This document shows, piece by piece, positions 17,338-36,218 of a DNA stretch of 64,000 bases (positions are counted from its first letter, which is position 1; each line of letters begins with the position of its first letter). Both the position numbers and the translations under genes were made by a program. The notes under the pieces were generated by a model. That model saw nothing but the letters and a program-made list of their open reading frames with translations, did not search any database and had not been told where the DNA came from. Source of the DNA: a virus; the IMG/VR virus record IMGVR_UViG_3300021185_003853, positions 1-64,000 of that record. One strand, written 5' to 3'.

Positions 17338-17443
17338 AGAAGAAAAAGAGGTAGCAAAGCCTACCCAAGAAGAAACGGAATACTGCATCTGCGGTAAGCC
17401 ACTAACACAAGAATGCTACGAGCATATGGCTAAGGGATATTAA
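17330..17443 (+). CDS. Very small Cys-containing protein, 37 aa
   Basis: ATG 17330 to TAA 17441-17443; TAATG overlap with glyA. Contains [11 protein letters not shown], a possible half zinc finger (C-x-C-x(7)-C), after a Lys/Glu-rich start. Translational coupling to SHMT is clear; function unknown. Confidence 0.55.
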
Positions 17444-18582
17444 TGGACACAAGAATCGCCAAGATTTATAACAAAGAGATTGATCGTCAAATGCACACGG
17501 TCGAACTTATCGCAAGTGAGAACTTTGCGAGTAAAGCAGTAATGGATTTAGCAGGTAGCCTGTTTACGAACAAGTACGCAGAAGGCTATCCCGGCAAGCG
17601 TTATTATAATGGTTGCGAAAACATGGATGAGATCGAAGAACTAGCGATTGAAACTTTGTGTAAATTGTATGGTTCTAACTTTGCGAATGTGCAACCACAT
17701 TGTGGTGCTAACGCAAACACTGCTGTATATCAAGCATTCTTGAAGCCAGGCGATACGATTCTTGGAATGGATTTAGCAAGTGGTGGTCATCTAAGTCATG
17801 GTAGTCCACCAAATATATCTGGTAAGATTTACAATGCTGTGTCTTATGGTGTTGATGAGAATGGCTGGATTGACTACGATCAAGTGAGAAGTCTAGCCCA
17901 TGAACACAAGCCTAAGATGATTGTAGCGGGCGCAAGTGCATATCCACGACAGATCGACTGGGCAGAGTTTAGAGATATTGCAGATGAGATTGGTGCATAT
18001 TTACTCGTAGATATGGCACACTATTCTGGTCTGATTGCAGGTGGTGTTTATGGAAACCCAGTGCCATTTGCTGATGTTGTTACATCGACTACACACAAGA
18101 CTCTTCGAGGACCTCGTGGTGGAATCATTCTATGGAACAACGAAGATTATACGAGAAAGATTAATAGTGCGATATTCCCAGGCACTCAAGGCGGACCTCT
18201 GATGCATATCATTGCCGCAAAGGCTCAATGCTTTATTGAAGCAAGCCAGATGGAGTTCTCAAAATACGCATTTGATGTAATCGAAAATGCTAAAGCAATG
18301 TGTGAAGTATTTGAGCAAAGAGGTTTGCCAGTACAGACAGACGGAACTGATTCGCACATTATTCTAATGGATTTGAGTGAGAGTAAGCATAGTGGTCGAG
18401 AAGCGGCTGATCTACTCGAAGATAATGAAATTACTGTGAATAAGAATGGTGTACCAAACGACCCACGATCTTTTGTAGAGACAAGTGGCATTCGAATTGG
18501 TACTGCCGCAGAGACTACTCGTGGTCATGATGTCGAGTGGTTCAAAGAACTAGCAAATAGAATTGCGGATATCTTAGCATGA
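17443..18582 (+). CDS. glyA: Serine hydroxymethyltransferase
   Basis: 379 residues; bacterial enzymes have about 415-430. PLP enzyme converting serine plus tetrahydrofolate to glycine plus methylene-THF, the one-carbon donor for dTMP synthesis. Visible signatures: [57 protein letters not shown] and the PLP-lysine motif [12 protein letters not shown] (Lys219), [23 protein letters not shown]. Compared with E. coli GlyA the C-terminal tail of about 30 residues after the last helix is missing, but the catalytic parts are all present. An auxiliary metabolic gene that would feed phage DNA synthesis. Confidence 0.95.
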
Positions 18583-27711: not shown

Positions 27712-27990
27712 ATGGAAATATTGACACTTATTGCCGATGTAGGATTTCCTATTGCATCGGCTCTTGCAGGTGGATTTTTCGTGTTTGTTACACTCAAGTT
27801 TATCTTGAATGGTGTGCTTAGTGACATTTGTACACAAAGGGGCTTTGTAAAAGCACTAGATAATAGAGTGAAAACAATGAATAACGAGGTCGTGAGAATC
27901 GATCTTCAGATGTGTCATGCTTTTGGAGTTGAACCAGACTTAACAGTCGTAGCGAGGGCAGACGGACAGCAAGACGCAAGAAAGGATTAG
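27712..27990 (+). CDS. Small membrane protein, 92 aa (holin/UviB-like layout, copy 1)
   Basis: N-terminal GFPIASALAGGFFVFVTLKF membrane helix, then a coiled-coil-type segment (ALDNRVKTMNNEVVRIDLQM) and a hydrophilic end. The next gene has the same layout (YGFPIIAAVGLGYFIYYIWS; IDRIRMLDNDLIRLRTKLD), so they are paralogues. One TM helix followed by a helical tail is seen in BhlA/UviB-type phage proteins. GAGGTAGGT lies before ATG 27712. First gene of the curli block. Confidence 0.65.
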   Translation: MEILTLIADVGFPIASALAGGFFVFVTLKFILNGVLSDICTQRGFVKALDNRVKTMNNEVVRIDLQMCHAFGVEPDLTVVARADGQQDARKD

Positions 27991-27993
27991 ATT

Positions 27994-28290
27994 ATGGAAG
28001 AATTAGATATAGGAGCAATGATCTCACAGTACGGCTTTCCAATTATAGCCGCTGTTGGATTAGGATACTTCATATATTACATATGGAGTTGGGTTACTGA
28101 AGAAGTAGACCCAGTGATATCAGAGTCTCATATGACTCTCATAGCACTAATTGACAGAATAAGAATGTTAGATAATGATTTGATAAGACTGAGAACTAAA
28201 CTAGATATGATTTTACAGCAACAGGAAATGATGAAGAATGAAAAAGATAATAACTCTGATACTACTATCGATATCACTGACGAGTCATAG
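27994..28290 (+). CDS. Small membrane protein, 98 aa (holin/UviB-like layout, copy 2)
   Basis: Paralogue of the preceding gene: N-terminal membrane helix after MEELDIGAMISQYGFP, then a coiled-coil-like region (LIALIDRIRMLDNDLIRLR) and a polar tail. Overlaps the csgF-like gene by 53 bp in another frame. Either holin-like, or inner-membrane parts of the secretion system; the sequence does not decide. Confidence 0.65.
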   Translation: MEELDIGAMISQYGFPIIAAVGLGYFIYYIWSWVTEEVDPVISESHMTLIALIDRIRMLDNDLIRLRTKLDMILQQQEMMKNEKDNNSDTTIDITDES

Positions 28291-28732
28291 TAGCGAAATA
28301 ACTTTCGGATTCAAAAGCCCATCATTTAGTGGTGTTGGCACTGGTTCGCATTATCTTACGATTGAGAACCAAGAACATAGTCGAAAGAAATCAATCGAAG
28401 ATGCACTCGAAGCGGCTCGTAAAGCGGCTGAAAGAGAAGCAGAAAACACCACACTCGCTAAGTTCATTCGTAACCTAGAGAGTCGTATCTATTCACAGTT
28501 GTCAAAGCAACTTGTGGACAATATGTTTAGTAACGAAGATGCAGTCACATTCGGGTCATTTACACTTGAAGGGTCTACAGTTGCCTATCAGGTTATGACG
28601 AATGATGCAGGCGAAGATTATATCGAGATGAGAATTGTAGATACAGAAGGTTCAGAAACTATTATTGAAATACCAATTGGTACTGGTAACTTTGGTTCAA
28701 TAGATAGCGGGGAAGATGATGTTGCGTTTTAG
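28238..28732 (+). CDS. csgF: CsgF-like curli assembly protein
   Basis: 164 residues. Sec signal peptide (KKIITLILLSISLTSHSS), then EITFGFKSPSFSGVGTGSHY, which matches the N-terminus of mature CsgF (TMTFQFRNPNFGGNPNNG), the segment that binds in the CsgG channel. The middle is a charged helix (KKSIEDALEAARKAAEREAE) longer than in E. coli CsgF; the end has beta strands (EDYIEMRIVDTEGSETIIEI) like the CsgF C-terminal domain and finishes VAF. E. coli CsgF is 138 aa. It would be surface-exposed, coupling curlin secretion with nucleation. Directly followed by csgG. Confidence 0.85.
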   Translation: MKKIITLILLSISLTSHSSEITFGFKSPSFSGVGTGSHYLTIENQEHSRKKSIEDALEAARKAAEREAENTTLAKFIRNLESRIYSQLSKQLVDNMFSNEDAVTFGSFTLEGSTVAYQVMTNDAGEDYIEMRIVDTEGSETIIEIPIGTGNFGSIDSGEDDVAF

Positions 28733-29621
28733 TTTACTACTAGCGGTATCTATTATCACTGGGTGCGCTCAGATTCCAAAATGGTCTGAGAATCCACAGG
28801 ATTGCTCACATCTGAAAAATGCTAGGGACTATATCTGTGTAGACGAACCAGAAGTGGTTGATATGCCCGCATATGTAAAATTACTTGAAGTTCCACCTGC
28901 TACCAAAATGCCAGTTGTAGCAGTATATGGATTCAGAGACTTAACAGGTCAAAGAAAGAATAGAGACGGAATTGCAGATTTTAGTACTGCTGTCACACAA
29001 GGCGGTACTGAAATGCTAATAGATGCACTCAAAACAGCAGGGAAAGGGACTTGGTTTCGTGTTGTGGAGAGACAGGGTATCGACAATCTAGTAAGAGAAA
29101 GACAGATTGTTAGATCAACCCGAAAAGAATACGCTGACGAAAAATCTCAAGGGTTAGGACCTTTGTTATTTGCAGGTATGATTATCGAAGGCGGTATAAT
29201 TGGTTATGATACAAATCTTCAATCAGGTGGTAGAGGTGCTAGAGCATTAGGTATTGCGCTTTCAAGGCAATATCGTAAAGATGTCGTGACTGTTTCTGTG
29301 AGGGCTGTCTCAGTCCTGACAGGAGAAGTTCTGCTCAATGTTCAAGCAAAGAAGAGTATTCTTAGTTATGGGTCGGGTGGTGATTTATTCCGATTCTACG
29401 AAGAAGGAACTAAGCTAGTTGAATATGAAGATGGTGTGGGAAATAATGAGTCAGTGACTTATGCGGTACGGACAGCCATTGAGGCAGCCGTGCTTGAACT
29501 AATATATCAGGGACATGATAGAAGTCTCTGGTCAGTAGGTGAAGGTCATCGTCATCCTCATTTGAATGATGGAACGAATGATGGTCATAGCCTAGAAGAA
29601 GAGGTAAAGGAAGATGAATAG
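28716..29621 (+). CDS. csgG: CsgG-like outer-membrane curli secretion channel
   Basis: 301 residues, near E. coli CsgG (277). Lipoprotein signal with lipobox SIITGC (Cys17). Family motifs: VVAVYGFRDLTGQRKN, TQGGTEMLIDALKTAG, WFRVVERQGIDNLVRERQIV, LGPLLFAGMIIEGGIIGYD, VTVSVRAVSVLTGEVLLNV and SVTYAVRTAIEAAVLELI. CsgG forms a nonameric channel for unfolded curlins in the outer membrane. The 25 C-terminal residues are His/Asp/Glu-rich (HRHPHLNDGTNDGHS), unlike E. coli. Overlaps csgF by 17 bp and the curlin gene by 8 bp. Confidence 0.92.
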   Translation: MMLRFSLLLAVSIITGCAQIPKWSENPQDCSHLKNARDYICVDEPEVVDMPAYVKLLEVPPATKMPVVAVYGFRDLTGQRKNRDGIADFSTAVTQGGTEMLIDALKTAGKGTWFRVVERQGIDNLVRERQIVRSTRKEYADEKSQGLGPLLFAGMIIEGGIIGYDTNLQSGGRGARALGIALSRQYRKDVVTVSVRAVSVLTGEVLLNVQAKKSILSYGSGGDLFRFYEEGTKLVEYEDGVGNNESVTYAVRTAIEAAVLELIYQGHDRSLWSVGEGHRHPHLNDGTNDGHSLEEEVKEDE

Positions 29622-30339
29622 GTACTTAATAGGACTAGTAGCATTGCTTTCTAGTTTCGTTTATGCTGGCGCATCTGATGATAACGAAATCAACATCGAA
29701 CAATCTGGTGATACATTTACATTGTATATCGATCAGGTAGGTTATGGTAACAAAGTAGGACTTGATAATTTTGAAACATCGTCAAGTGCTTCGCCTATAA
29801 CTGGTTCATCGTTGAATTTCGATATTGATCAAATTGGTAACGAGAACTTATTGTTCGGTGAAGTAACTGCCGATAGTTCAACTTACAATCTGATCTGGAC
29901 TGGTGATTCTAACTCATGGGATTGGATGATTGGCGATGTAGGTTCTGCTGATTCGACAAACATTGATGTTAGCATAACTGGTGACTCCAACACAATGGAT
30001 TTTGATCAGGGTTCTGTAGCAAGTGCAGAAAGACTTGATCTTGATTTAACTGTGATTGGCAGTAGCAATGTATTTGATGTAGATGTTGAAACAGATGATG
30101 TAACATTCACAGTTGATGTTACTGGTGATGGCAACAACATCAATACACTACAGAACGATGGATTCTACCAAACATTAACTCTTGACCTAACTGGAGACAA
30201 TGCTGATGTTGATATTAATCAACTTAGTGGTACTTGTCCACAGGGTGTTACTAGTTGTAAAGGTATAATTACATTAGATGTTACTTCTGAAAATGCTACT
30301 ATCCAGATTAACCAGAAAGATAACGCAGGCGACAGTTAA
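29614..30339 (+). CDS. Curlin-repeat protein (CsgA/CsgB-like), copy 1
   Basis: 241 residues with signal peptide (YLIGLVALLSSFVYAGA). The mature part has about eight degenerate curlin-type repeats of 20-30 residues with the pattern beta-[QT]-G-x-x-N-x(5)-Q: NEINIEQSGDTFTLYIDQVG, FDIDQIGNENLLFG, DVSITGDSNTMDFDQG, TVDVTGDGNNINTLQND, LDLTGDNADVDINQL. Very acidic (many Asp), unlike E. coli CsgA. Two Cys near the end (TCPQGVTSC) may form a disulfide. Probable secretion substrate of the CsgG homologue, able to form surface amyloid-like fibre. Confidence 0.82.
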   Translation: MNRYLIGLVALLSSFVYAGASDDNEINIEQSGDTFTLYIDQVGYGNKVGLDNFETSSSASPITGSSLNFDIDQIGNENLLFGEVTADSSTYNLIWTGDSNSWDWMIGDVGSADSTNIDVSITGDSNTMDFDQGSVASAERLDLDLTVIGSSNVFDVDVETDDVTFTVDVTGDGNNINTLQNDGFYQTLTLDLTGDNADVDINQLSGTCPQGVTSCKGIITLDVTSENATIQINQKDNAGDS

Positions 30340-31435
30340 TGCATTGCTACTAGTGGGAGTTGCCGCTCAAGGCGCTTCCATTGGTGGTATTGTAGAGTCA
30401 ACTGGAGTCGGTTCTCTTGAACGAGAGACATCAGATACAGTAGTTGCGACTGTGGGCGAGGAGATTCAACTCAACGATACCGCTCAAACTGCAAAAGGTA
30501 GAATGCTAATCAAGTTCCTTGATGAGGCAGAACTATCTCTAATCGAACATACCAAAGTCTATATCGACAAAGTTTACTACGACCCGGATCCCTCCAAATC
30601 CAAAATGGTCATGAAGATGGCTTTAGGCACCGCTAGGTTTGCCTCTGGGCGTCTTGGAATGGTGAACAAATCAAATATAGACATATCAACACCAACGGCA
30701 ACGATTGCTGTTCGTGGCACAGATTTCACAACGACTATTGATGAACTTGGTAGATCATTAGTCATTCTATTACCAGATGAAAATGGTGACCCGTCTGGTG
30801 AGATCATCGTATCAAACGAAGCGGGTTCAGTGACACTCACTGAAGCATATGCCGCAACAATGGTTTCGAGTGTATCAACAATGCCTACTCAAAAAGTAAT
30901 CATAAATAACATCACGCCTGCGCTTATAGACAATATGTTTATCGTCAACGCACCACAAGAGGTAAGACAGGCAATTGAAGAGCAGATTCAAGAAGACGAT
31001 AATTTGGACATGGGTTCATTAGATGCTGACTTCCTAGAGTTTGATGAGTTAGAAAAGGATTTTGATGACTATGCAGGTGGAGAAGTTTACACCAGATTAG
31101 ATTATGATTTTCTAGGGTCTAATCTATTAACTGACTTGCTTGATGTGATCGATGAATTAATCCGCACAATGGCACAACTCGAAGATGTACAAGAGGGAGC
31201 AGGTAATACAGCAATACGACTGACTGGTGCTAAATGGGGATTCAATGATGATAGTCAGTACGCCATATTTGAAGAAGATGGTGGTATCGTATTTCATCGT
31301 GATGTTAGAGGTGTTATCAGTTTGAAGTTTGCTAAAGGTGGAGCAATAACTGTAGTGACAGAAGTCGAAGGTTATGTAGGCGAAATCACTGCTGACGGCG
31401 GAGAAGACATCAACGTCTTTATTAAACAGGATTAA
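30293..31435 (+). CDS. FecR-domain exported protein
   Basis: 380 residues from ATG 30293 (an in-frame ATG 30278 adds five). Basic start and hydrophobic stretch (ATVNALLLVGVAAQGAS) make a signal peptide. Residues 25-175 are a FecR domain: VATVGEEIQLNDTAQTAKGR, AELSLIEHTKVYID, MALGTARFASGRLG, IDISTPTATIAVRGTDFTTTID. The rest is acidic and unassigned (DADFLEFDELEKDFDDYAGG). FecR-domain proteins are signalling or periplasmic proteins and often lie next to CHASE2-cyclases in bacteria, as here. Overlaps the first curlin gene. Confidence 0.82.
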   Translation: MLLSRLTRKITQATVNALLLVGVAAQGASIGGIVESTGVGSLERETSDTVVATVGEEIQLNDTAQTAKGRMLIKFLDEAELSLIEHTKVYIDKVYYDPDPSKSKMVMKMALGTARFASGRLGMVNKSNIDISTPTATIAVRGTDFTTTIDELGRSLVILLPDENGDPSGEIIVSNEAGSVTLTEAYAATMVSSVSTMPTQKVIINNITPALIDNMFIVNAPQEVRQAIEEQIQEDDNLDMGSLDADFLEFDELEKDFDDYAGGEVYTRLDYDFLGSNLLTDLLDVIDELIRTMAQLEDVQEGAGNTAIRLTGAKWGFNDDSQYAIFEEDGGIVFHRDVRGVISLKFAKGGAITVVTEVEGYVGEITADGGEDINVFIKQD

Positions 31436-31436
31436 T

Positions 31437-32150
31437 ATGAAGGACATAGAAGAATACTTGTTATACGTTATTACTCCAATTCTTTTATTGGTGTATATGT
31501 TTGCCTCGGGTAAAGCAAAAGCAGACAACGAAATCTTTATCGATCAATCAGGCAATAACTTTGCGATTGGTGTTGAACAAATAGGCGCTAACAACAACGC
31601 AACAGTCAACGCTGATGGAACAACTCAACAACTACTTATTGTTCAATATAATGACACTACAGTAGATAATGATGTAACAGTCAATACTACAGGTGCTGAC
31701 AATGGTATCAAACTATGTCAAGGGTGTGCCTTTGATTATCCAGAAAGTTACACCAATCACGACTATTGGTACGATAACCTGGAAGGTGGCGGTCACTCAA
31801 TCGATGTGACTGTTACTGGAGATAGAAATGGTATCTCTGCTCAACAAACAAATCAAGGCAGTACAAACGGTCACAGTTACGATCTAAATTTAACTGGAGA
31901 CGATAACGAAGTTACGACCATTCAACAGCACGATGGTGTTAAGACTATAGACCTTACAATCTACAATGATGACAACGATGTGTTTGTTCGTCAGAAAGGG
32001 GCAGGTTCAACTCATACTGCTACGATAGAACTTGACGGCACATATGGCACTGACCTGACACTCAAACAATTCAATTCAACAGCAACTTACTCACTCACGC
32101 AAAATTGTGTCACTGTTGGTGGTTGCTCTATCTCGGTGACTCAACAATGA
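31437..32150 (+). CDS. Curlin-repeat protein (CsgA/CsgB-like), copy 2
   Basis: 237 residues. N-terminal signal or anchor helix (YLLYVITPILLLVYMFASG) after an unusual acidic MKDIEE start, then KAKADNEIFIDQSGNNFAIG and VEQIGANNNATVN, which open like curlin 1. Repeats: VTVTGDRNGISAQQTNQG, LNLTGDDNEVTTIQQHDG, LTIYNDDNDVFVRQKGAG, ending SLTQNCVTVGGCSISVTQQ. A Cys pair (KLCQGCAF) and a final Cys pair are present. It could be the nucleator (CsgB role) if copy 1 is the major subunit; the order cannot be decided. Overlaps the cyclase gene (ATGA). Confidence 0.82.
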   Translation: MKDIEEYLLYVITPILLLVYMFASGKAKADNEIFIDQSGNNFAIGVEQIGANNNATVNADGTTQQLLIVQYNDTTVDNDVTVNTTGADNGIKLCQGCAFDYPESYTNHDYWYDNLEGGGHSIDVTVTGDRNGISAQQTNQGSTNGHSYDLNLTGDDNEVTTIQQHDGVKTIDLTIYNDDNDVFVRQKGAGSTHTATIELDGTYGTDLTLKQFNSTATYSLTQNCVTVGGCSISVTQQ

Positions 32151-34174
32151 CAAAGTGGTGGTCAGTTCTTCCAATTATTTTCATATTTTGTGCATTAAAA
32201 GTCACAGAATCCTACTTTGTAAAATCGATAGAATATACATACTACGACCAGTTGCAACGTGGCCATCAAACTACTAAAGTGAATGACATTGTACTGGTAA
32301 ACATAGATGAAAATGCAATTAAAAAGGAAGGACAATACCCTTGGCCAAGACAGACAGTCGCCAAATACATAAACAATGCACCGATCAACTCACTGCTAGT
32401 CTCCACTATGATCTGGTCAGAGCCAGATCGCTTTGCAGGGGACAAGGAACTATCAAGATCCCTAAGTCAAAAAGCATTGGTATTAGCAAGCGCCCCTACT
32501 CGCCAAACTACTACAACTGAGTTAGGGATATATGCCAATGTTTCGACATTCGGCAAACCGACAAGTACGCTGATTAACTACAGTGGGTTATTGACACCCA
32601 TACAAGATCTCGCACAATATGCAATGGGAGTCGGCGCTGTGTCTGCTGAAGTCGATCAACCTTCAGGCGTTCTACGTAGAGTCCCATTAATCGTTAGCAT
32701 TAATGGACAACCTTATCCTTCATTAGGACTTGATACTGTTCGTGTATTTTTAGGTGAACCATCATATACTATTAAGAACAATGAACTCGGAGTGGAGTGG
32801 ATTCGTTTAGGTAAACAAGATCCTATTACAACCCAACCGACATCTGAACTGCCTGTTGCATTCTGGCATGACTTCGAACAGATATCTATTCTTGATCCAA
32901 TGCCTGAGGGTAAGGTATTGATCTTCGGGGTGACTGCAGAAGGATATTCGAATCCTGTTCCGACACCAACAGGTCCTATGTATCCTCATGAGATTCAAGC
33001 ACAACAAATCTACACGCTGATGTCTGGTGTCGAGATACTACGACCCGACTATACAAGATTCCTCGAACTATTGATGATCCTTATTGCTTGTACGGGCATA
33101 CTAATCGCAGTTTATCGCTTGGGTACGATTGGTGCGTGTATCACAAGCATTGCATTGTTGGGTGCATCACCAGCGATAGGATATTATGCATGGACAAATA
33201 GTTACTTCTTCCTTGATATTATCTGGCCAACAGTTGCCGGGGTGGTCGTATTCGCACAAAGTTCATTCAACAAATACTACACGACTTACAAACTCAAAGA
33301 ACAAATCAAGAAACAATTTGGGACATACTTATCTCCTGCTATGGTGCAAAAATTACAAGATGATCCGTCATTGTTAAGGTTGGGTGGTGAGACAAGAAAT
33401 ATGACATTCCTGTTCTGTGACATTCGTGGATTCACTCCAATATCAGAACAATACAAAACAAACCCACAAGGATTGACGGAACTCGTCAATCGATTCCTGA
33501 CACCGATGACAGACATTATTATGGACAACGAAGGAACCATTGATAAGTACATGGGTGACTGCATTATGGCGTTTTGGAATGCCCCCTTAGACGTGCAGTA
33601 TCAGGAGTATATGGCGGTTAAAACGAGTGTAGAGATGTATCAGCACCTTGACATACTCAACGCAGAACTCGAAAGCGAAGGGTTATTGCCCATTAATATC
33701 GGTGTTGGTATCAATACAGGTGAAGTTGTTGTGGGTAATATGGGGTCAAATCAACGCTTTGATTACTCTGTATTGGGTGATGCTGTAAACCTAGCGGCAC
33801 GATTAGAAGGACAAACAAAGTCATATGGTGTCAAAACACTTATAGGTGAGGACACTAAAACACAGCTCAACGAACAATACTTTACTCTTGAGTTAGATAA
33901 TCTTGCTGTTAAGGGTAAGACAGAACCTGTTAAGATATACACTGTATTGACTGAAGCAATAGATGTTGAGATAGAAATGCATGAAGAGATGATGAGAGCA
34001 TATTACGCAAAACAATTCGATCAAGCGATAGCATTCTGTGAGGATCTAAAGAGATGCTTCAAAGGTGAAATTGCTGATTATTACAGAATGTGGCAAGACA
34101 GATGTAGGTCGCTAGAAAACACTCTAGACAAGGGTGAAGCGTGGGACGGCGTGTATCGAGCAACATCTAAATAA
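32147..34174 (+). CDS. CHASE2-domain class III adenylate/guanylate cyclase
   Basis: 675 residues. TM1 at 5-20 (LPIIFIFCALKVTESYF), periplasmic CHASE2 sensor to about residue 300 (YYDQLQRGHQ, IVLVNIDENAIKKEGQYPWP, GKVLIFGVTAEG), three membrane helices (305-385), then a class III cyclase: FLFCDIRGFTPIS with metal Asp425, IDKYMGDCIMAFW with Asp471, NIGVGINTGEVVVGN, and the transition-state motif LGDAVNLAARLEG (Asn and Arg). All catalytic positions look intact. C-terminal helical tail may be TPR-like. It would make cAMP (or cGMP) inside the infected cell in response to an envelope signal. ATG 32147 chosen for its overlap with the curlin stop. Confidence 0.9.
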   Translation: MTKWWSVLPIIFIFCALKVTESYFVKSIEYTYYDQLQRGHQTTKVNDIVLVNIDENAIKKEGQYPWPRQTVAKYINNAPINSLLVSTMIWSEPDRFAGDKELSRSLSQKALVLASAPTRQTTTTELGIYANVSTFGKPTSTLINYSGLLTPIQDLAQYAMGVGAVSAEVDQPSGVLRRVPLIVSINGQPYPSLGLDTVRVFLGEPSYTIKNNELGVEWIRLGKQDPITTQPTSELPVAFWHDFEQISILDPMPEGKVLIFGVTAEGYSNPVPTPTGPMYPHEIQAQQIYTLMSGVEILRPDYTRFLELLMILIACTGILIAVYRLGTIGACITSIALLGASPAIGYYAWTNSYFFLDIIWPTVAGVVVFAQSSFNKYYTTYKLKEQIKKQFGTYLSPAMVQKLQDDPSLLRLGGETRNMTFLFCDIRGFTPISEQYKTNPQGLTELVNRFLTPMTDIIMDNEGTIDKYMGDCIMAFWNAPLDVQYQEYMAVKTSVEMYQHLDILNAELESEGLLPINIGVGINTGEVVVGNMGSNQRFDYSVLGDAVNLAARLEGQTKSYGVKTLIGEDTKTQLNEQYFTLELDNLAVKGKTEPVKIYTVLTEAIDVEIEMHEEMMRAYYAKQFDQAIAFCEDLKRCFKGEIADYYRMWQDRCRSLENTLDKGEAWDGVYRATSK

Positions 34175-34177
34175 CAC

Positions 34178-34234
34178 GACAAATATGACATATTGTACTT
34201 GAATTAAGGCATTACATGACAAATATGACGTATT
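34178..34234. repeat. Two direct repeats of a 17-bp dyad element
   Basis: GACAAATATGACATATT (34178-34194) and GACAAATATGACGTATT (34218-34234), one mismatch, 40 bp apart. Each contains the imperfect dyad AATATGACRTATT. They lie just upstream of the 34254 promoter and are operator candidates. Confidence 0.6.
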
Positions 34235-34253
34235 AAATAAATGAAAAAACCGG

Positions 34254-34282
34254 TTGACATATACCTCAATTTGATGTATAAT
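34254..34282 (+). promoter_or_regulatory. Sigma70-like promoter of the lysis/bilin operon
   Basis: TTGACA 34254-34259, TATAAT 34277-34282, 17 bp spacer. Drives 34312-36133, three overlapping genes. Confidence 0.85.
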
Positions 34283-34311: not shown

Positions 34312-34902
34312 ATGAAATCTAAGTTGAAAGCTGCGCAGTTGATTATCGGTATTCTAGCGTTATTATTTATCTCTATTATTGTATTGATGTATCCTGTTAA
34401 ACACAATCAAGAGTTTTATGCTATTGAACAGGTTACAGTGCCTGAACAAAGCAAGCATCTTACACTTGATAATATTGAATGTATGGCACTAAACATCTAC
34501 CATGAATCACGAAATCAAACTCTAGGCGGACGACTTGCCGTAGGTTATGTTACTTTAAATCGTGTTAAGAGTAATAAGTATCCTGACACTATTTGCGGTG
34601 TCGTGAAACAAGCAAAAATAAACAAATGGTTCCTCGAAAGACACAACAAAAAAGTTCCCTCTAGAAACAAGTGTCAATTTTCTTGGTATTGCGATGGTAA
34701 GTCAGATCAACCATTAGAATCAAACGCATGGGAGGAAGCATATCTACTTGCTATCCATGTTATAAATATGTACGATACTATATCAGATCCCACAAAAGGT
34801 TCGATCATGTATCACAGCAATAAAGTGAAACCTTACTGGACAGATGCTTATAAACATCTTGTCACAATTGATGACCACATTTTTTATGGGAGTGTGAAAT
34901 GA
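34312..34902 (+). CDS. SleB-type cell wall hydrolase with N-terminal membrane helix
   Basis: 196 residues. An uncleaved-looking hydrophobic segment (LIIGILALLFISIIVLMYPV) then a Hydrolase_2 (SleB-like) domain: IECMALNIYHESRNQTLGG with the catalytic Glu, AVGYVTLNRVKS, CQFSWYCDG, IMYHSNKVKPYW. Such enzymes cut peptidoglycan. The N-terminal helix makes it a candidate signal-anchor-type endolysin or a periplasmic enzyme exported by Sec. A surprise is its operon: the next two genes are bilin biosynthesis genes in tight overlap. The promoter is of the early type, which is unusual for a lysis enzyme. Confidence 0.87.
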   Translation: MKSKLKAAQLIIGILALLFISIIVLMYPVKHNQEFYAIEQVTVPEQSKHLTLDNIECMALNIYHESRNQTLGGRLAVGYVTLNRVKSNKYPDTICGVVKQAKINKWFLERHNKKVPSRNKCQFSWYCDGKSDQPLESNAWEEAYLLAIHVINMYDTISDPTKGSIMYHSNKVKPYWTDAYKHLVTIDDHIFYGSVK

Positions 34903-35450
34903 GTTTAAAAGAGTTAACTTGGGAAAATCACAAGTCGGCAGAACGCAAAAAGTTTGCTAGTATTCTAATGAGTGGTGATATAGATCCCTTGTTATATTAC
35001 AGATTTTTATGTAATCAATACTACATGTATATCATGTTAGAAGAAAATTTAAGAATGGCAGGATTCCCACCTAAGTTATGGGACATATTCAGAGCGCCAA
35101 AAATCCTTGAGGATATGGTCGAACTACAAGACGAATATGGATTCATATTTAAACCAAAAGCAGTATATCCACTCACACACAAATACTCGGCACACGTTGA
35201 GACATTGTTCCGTGAAAGACGATACGATGATTTGATTGCTCATATGTATGTTCGTCACTTTGGTGATATGTACGGCGGTGCGATGATTGCTAAGAAGGTT
35301 CCGGGTTCAGGTAAGATGTATGAGTTCGAGAACAAAGAAGAATTAAAAGTGCATCTACGTGAAATGCTTAACGATGATATGGGACCTGAAGCAAATGTAT
35401 GTTTCGAGTACGCAATTGCATTGTTTGAGGAGTTAGGCAAGGAATCATGA
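34899..35450 (+). CDS. Haem oxygenase
   Basis: 183 residues. Opens haem to biliverdin, Fe2+ and CO. Motifs: proximal His in LTWENHKSAERKKF (His11), and the distal helix HMYVRHFGDMYGGAMIAKK with the Gly-Asp pair (122-123) corresponding to HO-1 GD in YLGDLSGG. ATGA overlap with the hydrolase gene and with the next gene. Cyanophages carry ho1; here its partner is a PcyA-family bilin reductase, matching the phage HO/PcyX pair described from ocean viral metagenomes (recalled, not checked). Confidence 0.9.
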   Translation: MSLKELTWENHKSAERKKFASILMSGDIDPLLYYRFLCNQYYMYIMLEENLRMAGFPPKLWDIFRAPKILEDMVELQDEYGFIFKPKAVYPLTHKYSAHVETLFRERRYDDLIAHMYVRHFGDMYGGAMIAKKVPGSGKMYEFENKEELKVHLREMLNDDMGPEANVCFEYAIALFEELGKES

Positions 35451-36133
35451 GTTATGTTTGGGATTCGTTAGTCGATCTGCAGAATCATTTTATTGAGACA
35501 TTTGACTCAGTAGCAAAAGAATACAAAGAGTCAGGCATGGAACGATACAACCATGAAGGTTGGATTAATCGTGTATGGAGCAATGATGACTTTAGACGAG
35601 CGCATGTTGATGTTGTCGATGCCCGTGAGGAGAAAGGATTGTGGATGATGCATGTATGCGTATTCCCGCATCTAAGTTCAAACGCTCCTATCTATGGGTT
35701 TGATGTGATTGCTGGACATAAGTTGATGACTGGTGCATTTCATGACTATAGTCCTACAACACAAAAAGATCACCCAATGATTGATTATTTCAATGAACAG
35801 GTTGAACCCTTACAATGGAAACGTGAACGTGATTTGCCGCCTTGGGCGAAAGCAATCTTTAGTGACAAGATGATGGCGGCAAGTGCTGTTAAAGAGCATT
35901 CAGAGATCGATCAAGTTGTATCGACAGCAAAGAATACACTTGATTACTTTGTAAATAATGTGGGACAGTATAATCAAACTTCGAGGCGTAACCCGGTTGT
36001 GTTTGCTCAAAACAACTATGCGCATCACCAAAAACAAAATCCTCACACTCCCCGAGTGATGAAGACCCTAGGATTAAATTCAGACGATGTTGATTCGTTT
36101 ATTAAGAAGTGTTTGTTTCCAGAAGTGAAGTGA
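35447..36133 (+). CDS. pcyX: Ferredoxin-dependent bilin reductase, probable PcyX type
   Basis: 228 residues. Reduces biliverdin, the product of the adjacent haem oxygenase, to a phycobilin. Motifs aligned by eye to PcyA: RRAHVDVVDA (Asp55 at PcyA Glu76), WMMHVCVFPHLSSNAPIYG (His69 at PcyA His88), GFDVIAGHKLMTGAFHDYSP (Asp100 at PcyA Asp105). C-terminal SFIKKCLFPEVK also resembles the family end. The phage enzyme PcyX is reported to make phycoerythrobilin; this one may do so but the product cannot be read from sequence. No phycobiliprotein gene is visible. Confidence 0.85.
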   Translation: MSYVWDSLVDLQNHFIETFDSVAKEYKESGMERYNHEGWINRVWSNDDFRRAHVDVVDAREEKGLWMMHVCVFPHLSSNAPIYGFDVIAGHKLMTGAFHDYSPTTQKDHPMIDYFNEQVEPLQWKRERDLPPWAKAIFSDKMMAASAVKEHSEIDQVVSTAKNTLDYFVNNVGQYNQTSRRNPVVFAQNNYAHHQKQNPHTPRVMKTLGLNSDDVDSFIKKCLFPEVK

Positions 36134-36185
36134 TCATTTATGATTGATTATACCGCATTTAAGGTGAAAATAAATCATAAATGAT
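36133..36185. repeat. 13-bp perfect inverted repeat
   Basis: ATCATTTATGATT (36133-36145) and AATCATAAATGAT (36173-36185), 27 bp apart, immediately before the -35 box at 36189. May form a hairpin ending the pcyX transcript (no T-run) or act as an operator. Confidence 0.7.
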
Positions 36186-36188
36186 TGG

Positions 36189-36218
36189 TTGACATTGCAG
36201 TATTAGTTATGTTATAAT
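36189..36218 (+). promoter_or_regulatory. Sigma70-like early promoter
   Basis: TTGACA 36189-36194, TATAAT 36213-36218, 18 bp spacer. GCGAGG precedes the ATG at 36243. Confidence 0.85.

Follow-up and report, generated by a model that had tools for sequence, protein, structure and literature searches.

Ocean viruses are known to encode a haem oxygenase (HO) paired with the bilin reductase PcyX (Ledermann 2016, 2018; cited in PMC11480375), and earlier publications cover this pair of genes, the type of enzyme and its occurrence in T4-like phages of heterotrophs. PcyX forms phycoerythrobilin (PEB) via 15,16-dihydrobiliverdin (PMC6755814, PMC13193486), and Asp55 is its specific catalytic residue (PMC11480375). 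The regiospecificity of ferredoxin-dependent bilin reductases (FDBRs) is only partly predictable (PMC13193486), and a homologue without Asp55 from the freshwater phage CB_2 is a PcyA, which makes phycocyanobilin (PCB) that assembles phytochrome in vivo (PMC11480375). The literature has yet to settle why phages of non-photosynthetic bacteria carry enzymes that turn haem into bilins. Here we analyse a 64,000-nt stretch (the window) of a 114,312-base IMG/VR record of a T4-like phage, together with 154 IMG/VR stretches that encode relatives. At the level of the enzymes, we read the locus, with a probability of about 0.8, as an auxiliary metabolic operon that converts haem through biliverdin to PEB, a pink pigment that absorbs light, early in infection, using host ferredoxin.

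Three overlapping open reading frames (ORFs), all on the plus strand, span window positions 34312–36133, exactly as the first-pass annotation had placed them, and each scores above its Pfam curated cut-off. The first (34312–34902; 196 amino acids) is a SleB-like cell-wall hydrolase of endolysin type with an N-terminal membrane anchor (Hydrolase_2, PF07486; 76.9 bits against a cut-off of 27). It is followed by the HO gene (34899–35450; 183 amino acids; Heme_oxygenase, PF01126; 54.2 against 23) and by a gene for a PcyX-type FDBR (35447–36133; 228 amino acids; Fe_bilin_red, PF05996; 66.3 against 31). Both junctions consist of a 4-base ATGA overlap. Upstream and outside the operon lies a conserved neighbour on the same strand, a CHASE2-adenylate/guanylate cyclase (32147–34174), whose ORF is listed from a TTG at 32105 and whose homology to phage Melnitz begins at 32147.

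The HO carries His11, the proximal ligand, and a GDMYGG motif at residues 122–127. Across 24 aligned phage HOs, His11, Gly122-Asp123 and Gly126-Gly127 are invariant, which bears out the earlier choice of His11 and Gly122-Asp123 as key residues. An AF2 model (pLDDT 93.8) has the all-helical HO fold, and its top Foldseek matches are all haem oxygenases, including HmuO and human HO-2 (TMq about 0.8); the window protein is thus predicted to share this fold.

Among solved structures, the reductase is closest to PcyX_EBK42635 (PDB 5OWG; E 2e-71), with PcyA at only about 1e-11, and its AF2 model (pLDDT 93.7) likewise has 5OWG as the top Foldseek match (E 2.9e-16). Its Asp55, His69 and Asp86 align with Glu76, His88 and Asp105 of PcyA, and Asp55 is invariant in the viral PcyX set that we aligned. 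The alignment therefore upholds the assignments of His69 and Asp55 made from the sequence at first pass, but not that of Asp100 as a key residue: the equivalent of PcyA Asp105 is Asp86, and Asp100, itself invariant, belongs to a ‘DxSP’ motif. In a tree of 32 rows, from which PebS was left out because of an unusable long branch in an earlier tree, 25 rows, the window reductase among them, form a PcyX clade (support 96/97), with Roseomonas-type and cyanophage PcyA apart. The protein encoded at 35447 thus belongs to the FDBR family, as a PcyX, and the likeness to the known phage HO–PcyX pair that had been noticed at the outset fits by sequence, clade and Asp55.

This placement together with Asp55 leads us to predict that the window reductase is a PcyX making PEB, given that the homologue lacking Asp55 makes PCB (PMC11480375). 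That same CB_2 homologue, which turned out to be a PcyA, is what speaks for the window enzyme being a true PcyA with phycocyanobilin as its product, but the presence in the window of the Asp55 missing from CB_2 and the position inside the PcyX clade make this very unlikely. Within the clade, 5OWG, the only PcyX that a PDB search found, groups with the PcyX of pelagiphage Mosig, and the window reductase lies in another part, closest to that of locus L003 (96% identical); PEB synthesis by the window sub-clade is to this extent an extrapolation from a characterized enzyme of the Mosig sub-clade. Comparison of the window with L003 gave dN 0.017 and dS 0.274 for PcyX, with similar values for other PcyX pairs, and dN 0.014 and dS 0.364 for the C-terminal 61 amino acids of HO. 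By these substitution rates, both genes are under purifying selection.

We also considered, and rejected, candidates for a bacterial PcyX. Homologues from Roseomonadaceae and Acetobacteraceae, found in a scan of genome collections, have Glu at the Asp55 position and are PcyA-like. Four contigs (L103–L106) are binned in metagenome-assembled genomes (MAGs) of Pirellulales, Halobacteroidaceae, Neomarinimicrobiota (a 335-kb contig) and Rickettsiales; their gene order is that of the phages, so they are probably misbinned phage, and a further contig (L102) is too short to judge.

A perfect sigma-70 consensus promoter (TTGACA-17-TATAAT; 34254–34282, plus strand) precedes the hydrolase gene, one of six perfect sites in the 64 kb against 0.06 expected. 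A perfect site lies immediately 5′ of the hydrolase gene in 16 of the 17 loci of the same gene arrangement with enough flanking sequence (the exception is L032), several of which are near-identical copies. Because this promoter recurs before the hydrolase gene, the hydrolase, HO and PcyX genes are likely to be transcribed together and early. A candidate end of the transcript is an A+T-rich hairpin without a T-run (36131–36186, plus strand; −19.9 kcal/mol, z −4.5), located between PcyX and the promoter that serves the following unit, again a perfect sigma-70 site (36189–36218, plus strand), which L003 also has. We rejected a late promoter for the pair: a single TATAAATA occurs at 34761, within the hydrolase gene, and elsewhere in this arrangement only L026 has one less than 200 bases from HO. 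Just 5′ of the operon promoter, at positions 34178–34240, ACAAATATGAC.TATT occurs twice as a direct repeat, with a spacing of about 39 bases. An Rfam scan of the window found two tRNAs and nothing else.

In nearly all loci with enough 5′ sequence, HO lies upstream of PcyX, and, as judged by gene order, the pair is the constant unit across three arrangements. Arrangement I, that of the window, runs from the curli–cyclase region and the promoter through hydrolase, (kinase), HO, (a tail-anchored ORF of 48–60 amino acids) and PcyX to gp59 and gp32 farther on. In arrangement II, a second lineage of about 25 loci, the order is IMPDH–Hsp20–ClpS–HO–(nitrilase-like)–PcyX, often with the curli–cyclase region downstream and the hydrolase several kilobases upstream; HO–PcyX follows IMPDH–Hsp20–ClpS directly in L036, L040, L055, L061, L080–L082 and L103–L106, a DnaK gene is also present in the MAG contig L104, and the nitrilase-like gene separates HO and PcyX in L062, L105 and L106. 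Arrangement III is Mosig-like, with ferrochelatase and 2OG-Fe oxygenases, HO–PcyX and neck genes. The first-pass annotation had proposed translational coupling of the pair to the hydrolase. The overlap in the window supports this, but direct overlap or abutment recurs elsewhere only in L087 (the gap in L026 is 30 bases), and a kinase gene of about 232 amino acids stands between hydrolase and HO in most relatives of the window lineage. Across the lineage, the association is therefore best described, from gene order, as a shared transcription unit or island, and strict coupling is not a lineage trait.

About 20 loci have the tail-anchored ORF between HO and PcyX (for example, L004:9858–10004, L007:4323–4478 and L026:1486–1668); its product has a C-terminal membrane helix, and no Pfam family matches it above cut-off. 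The window has no such ORF at this position. In L049–L053, L057 and L059, the position is taken by another ORF, a non-membrane one about 60 amino acids long. Downstream of PcyX, L014 (2784–3743) and 22 other loci encode a 319-amino-acid membrane protein without a Pfam match, the N terminus of which is vaguely phosphate permease-like.

The genome belongs to an uncultured T4-like phage that, by gene content and similarity, is related to pelagimyophages and methylophages, in line with the initial description: gp59 and gp32 are present, and TerL and the sheath protein are 47% and 45% identical to those of Mosig. The absence of photosystem genes, also first described at the outset, holds for the reaction centre, with no Photo_RC gene in the 114-kb record; phycobilisome-like, hemerythrin and ferredoxin genes were likewise not found there, nor was ferredoxin in 17 partial relatives. 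The record is incomplete (cultured relatives have about 141 kb), and all these absences are accordingly weak. The adjacent HO, the lack of a Photo_RC gene and nearest cultured relatives that infect heterotrophs together place the pair in a putative non-cyanophage. As these relatives are Melnitz, HTVC008M and Mosig, a heterotrophic host is likely; it may differ from that of Mosig, because GC content is 39% in the window and 30% in Mosig (PMC7892664). The operon sits in the same accessory region as the curli–cyclase genes (27712–34174; CsgF, CsgG, curlin-like, FecR, curlin-like and CHASE2-cyclase, with CsgF, CsgG and FecR confirmed by Pfam), and in pelagimyophages curli genes lie in a hypervariable region between the replication and structural modules (Zaragoza-Solas 2020, PMC7029224). 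Elsewhere in the window, positions 17443–18582 encode a serine hydroxymethyltransferase (PF00464, E 2e-149), which PHROGs labels only ‘methyltransferase’.

In the proposed mechanism, host RNA polymerase would transcribe the hydrolase–HO–PcyX unit early, HO would convert haem to biliverdin IXα, Fe2+ and CO, and PcyX would carry out a four-electron reduction of biliverdin through 15,16-dihydrobiliverdin to PEB. Its electrons would come from host ferredoxin, given that the incomplete record yielded none. Our leading guess for the benefit, a tentative one, is controlled haem turnover that, as the phage takes over the cell, would free iron and clear both haem and biliverdin; by removing the product of HO, the reductase would draw that reaction forward. 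The ferrochelatase and 2OG-Fe oxygenases in Mosig-type loci are iron- or haem-linked neighbours that would fit such a role. The hydrolase would then be a co-transcribed neighbour, probably acting separately on the cell wall. Possibly the bilin itself is the purpose, PEB serving as chromophore or ligand of some photoreceptor of the host, such as a phytochrome or a bilin-binding globin, and altering host behaviour; that a four-electron reductase is retained beside HO under purifying selection argues for this, as does the phytochrome assembly achieved with CB_2 PCB, but the record lacks a phycobilisome-like gene and the neighbour clusters examined gave no bilin acceptor, and we hold it only loosely.

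A role in stress, in which HO and PcyX would clear pro-oxidant haem from host haemoproteins dismantled by the phage, alongside chaperones and proteolysis adaptors, draws on the position of the pair directly after IMPDH–Hsp20–ClpS and on the DnaK gene of L104. In the window lineage, however, the pair does not have these neighbours next to it, and a neighbourhood alone is no proof of function; we regard this role as unlikely. It is harder still to credit that pair and hydrolase share a part in timing lysis, for instance through bilin- or CO-linked control: the promoter shared over the lineage, the overlapping genes of the window and the tail-anchored ORFs elsewhere would suit it, but the promoter is of early and not late type, and other lineages have the pair kilobases from a hydrolase or with none nearby. 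A bolder and improbable extension would make HO–PcyX a portable early module that dismantles haemoproteins, paired with either the cyclase–hydrolase region or Hsp20–ClpS–IMPDH, and brought to the membrane in some phages by the tail-anchored microprotein, where cytochromes are stripped. Compared with these alternatives, haem turnover with release of iron is the benefit we favour.

Set against known systems, the genome context of the pair was not first resolved here, as had been supposed, but already in the cultured pelagiphage Mosig (EXVC030M; MT647606) and by Wegner 2024 (PMC11480375). Our own contribution lies in the conserved promoter, the unit that includes the hydrolase, the IMPDH–Hsp20–ClpS arrangement and the microprotein, none of which we found described in the main texts of open-licence papers. 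The hemO–pcyX–valaS cassettes of Wegner 2024 share the hemO–pcyX core in T4-like phages but differ in AlaS (TIGR01821), which had no match in the incomplete 114-kb window record; the records of L006, L045 and L082 do contain AlaS, apparently, in the close relative L006, as the 402-amino-acid gene between hydrolase and HO. In L113 (the L082 record of 261,806 bases, also with HO–PcyX), the AlaS match contains one internal TAA. PcyX_EBK42635 has the same enzyme family, fold and Asp55 as the window reductase and belongs to another PcyX sub-clade. In the Methylophilales phage Melnitz (PMC9004378), which gave no FDBR match, the cell-wall hydrolase lies at a distance of about 12 kb, but the order CsgF–CsgG–curlin–FecR–curlin–CHASE2 cyclase agrees with the window gene for gene. 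Mosig is likewise a T4-like phage of a heterotroph with overlapping HO and PcyX genes (37% and 47% identical, respectively, to those of the window); it differs in encoding its own ferredoxin and in having the pair between 2OG-Fe oxygenases/ferrochelatase and neck genes, whereas the window pair follows the curli–cyclase region and the hydrolase. Taken together, the conserved sigma-70 promoter and the neighbourhoods that recur lead us to expect early expression and point to specific partners, and both can be tested in the cultured Mosig–Pelagibacter system.
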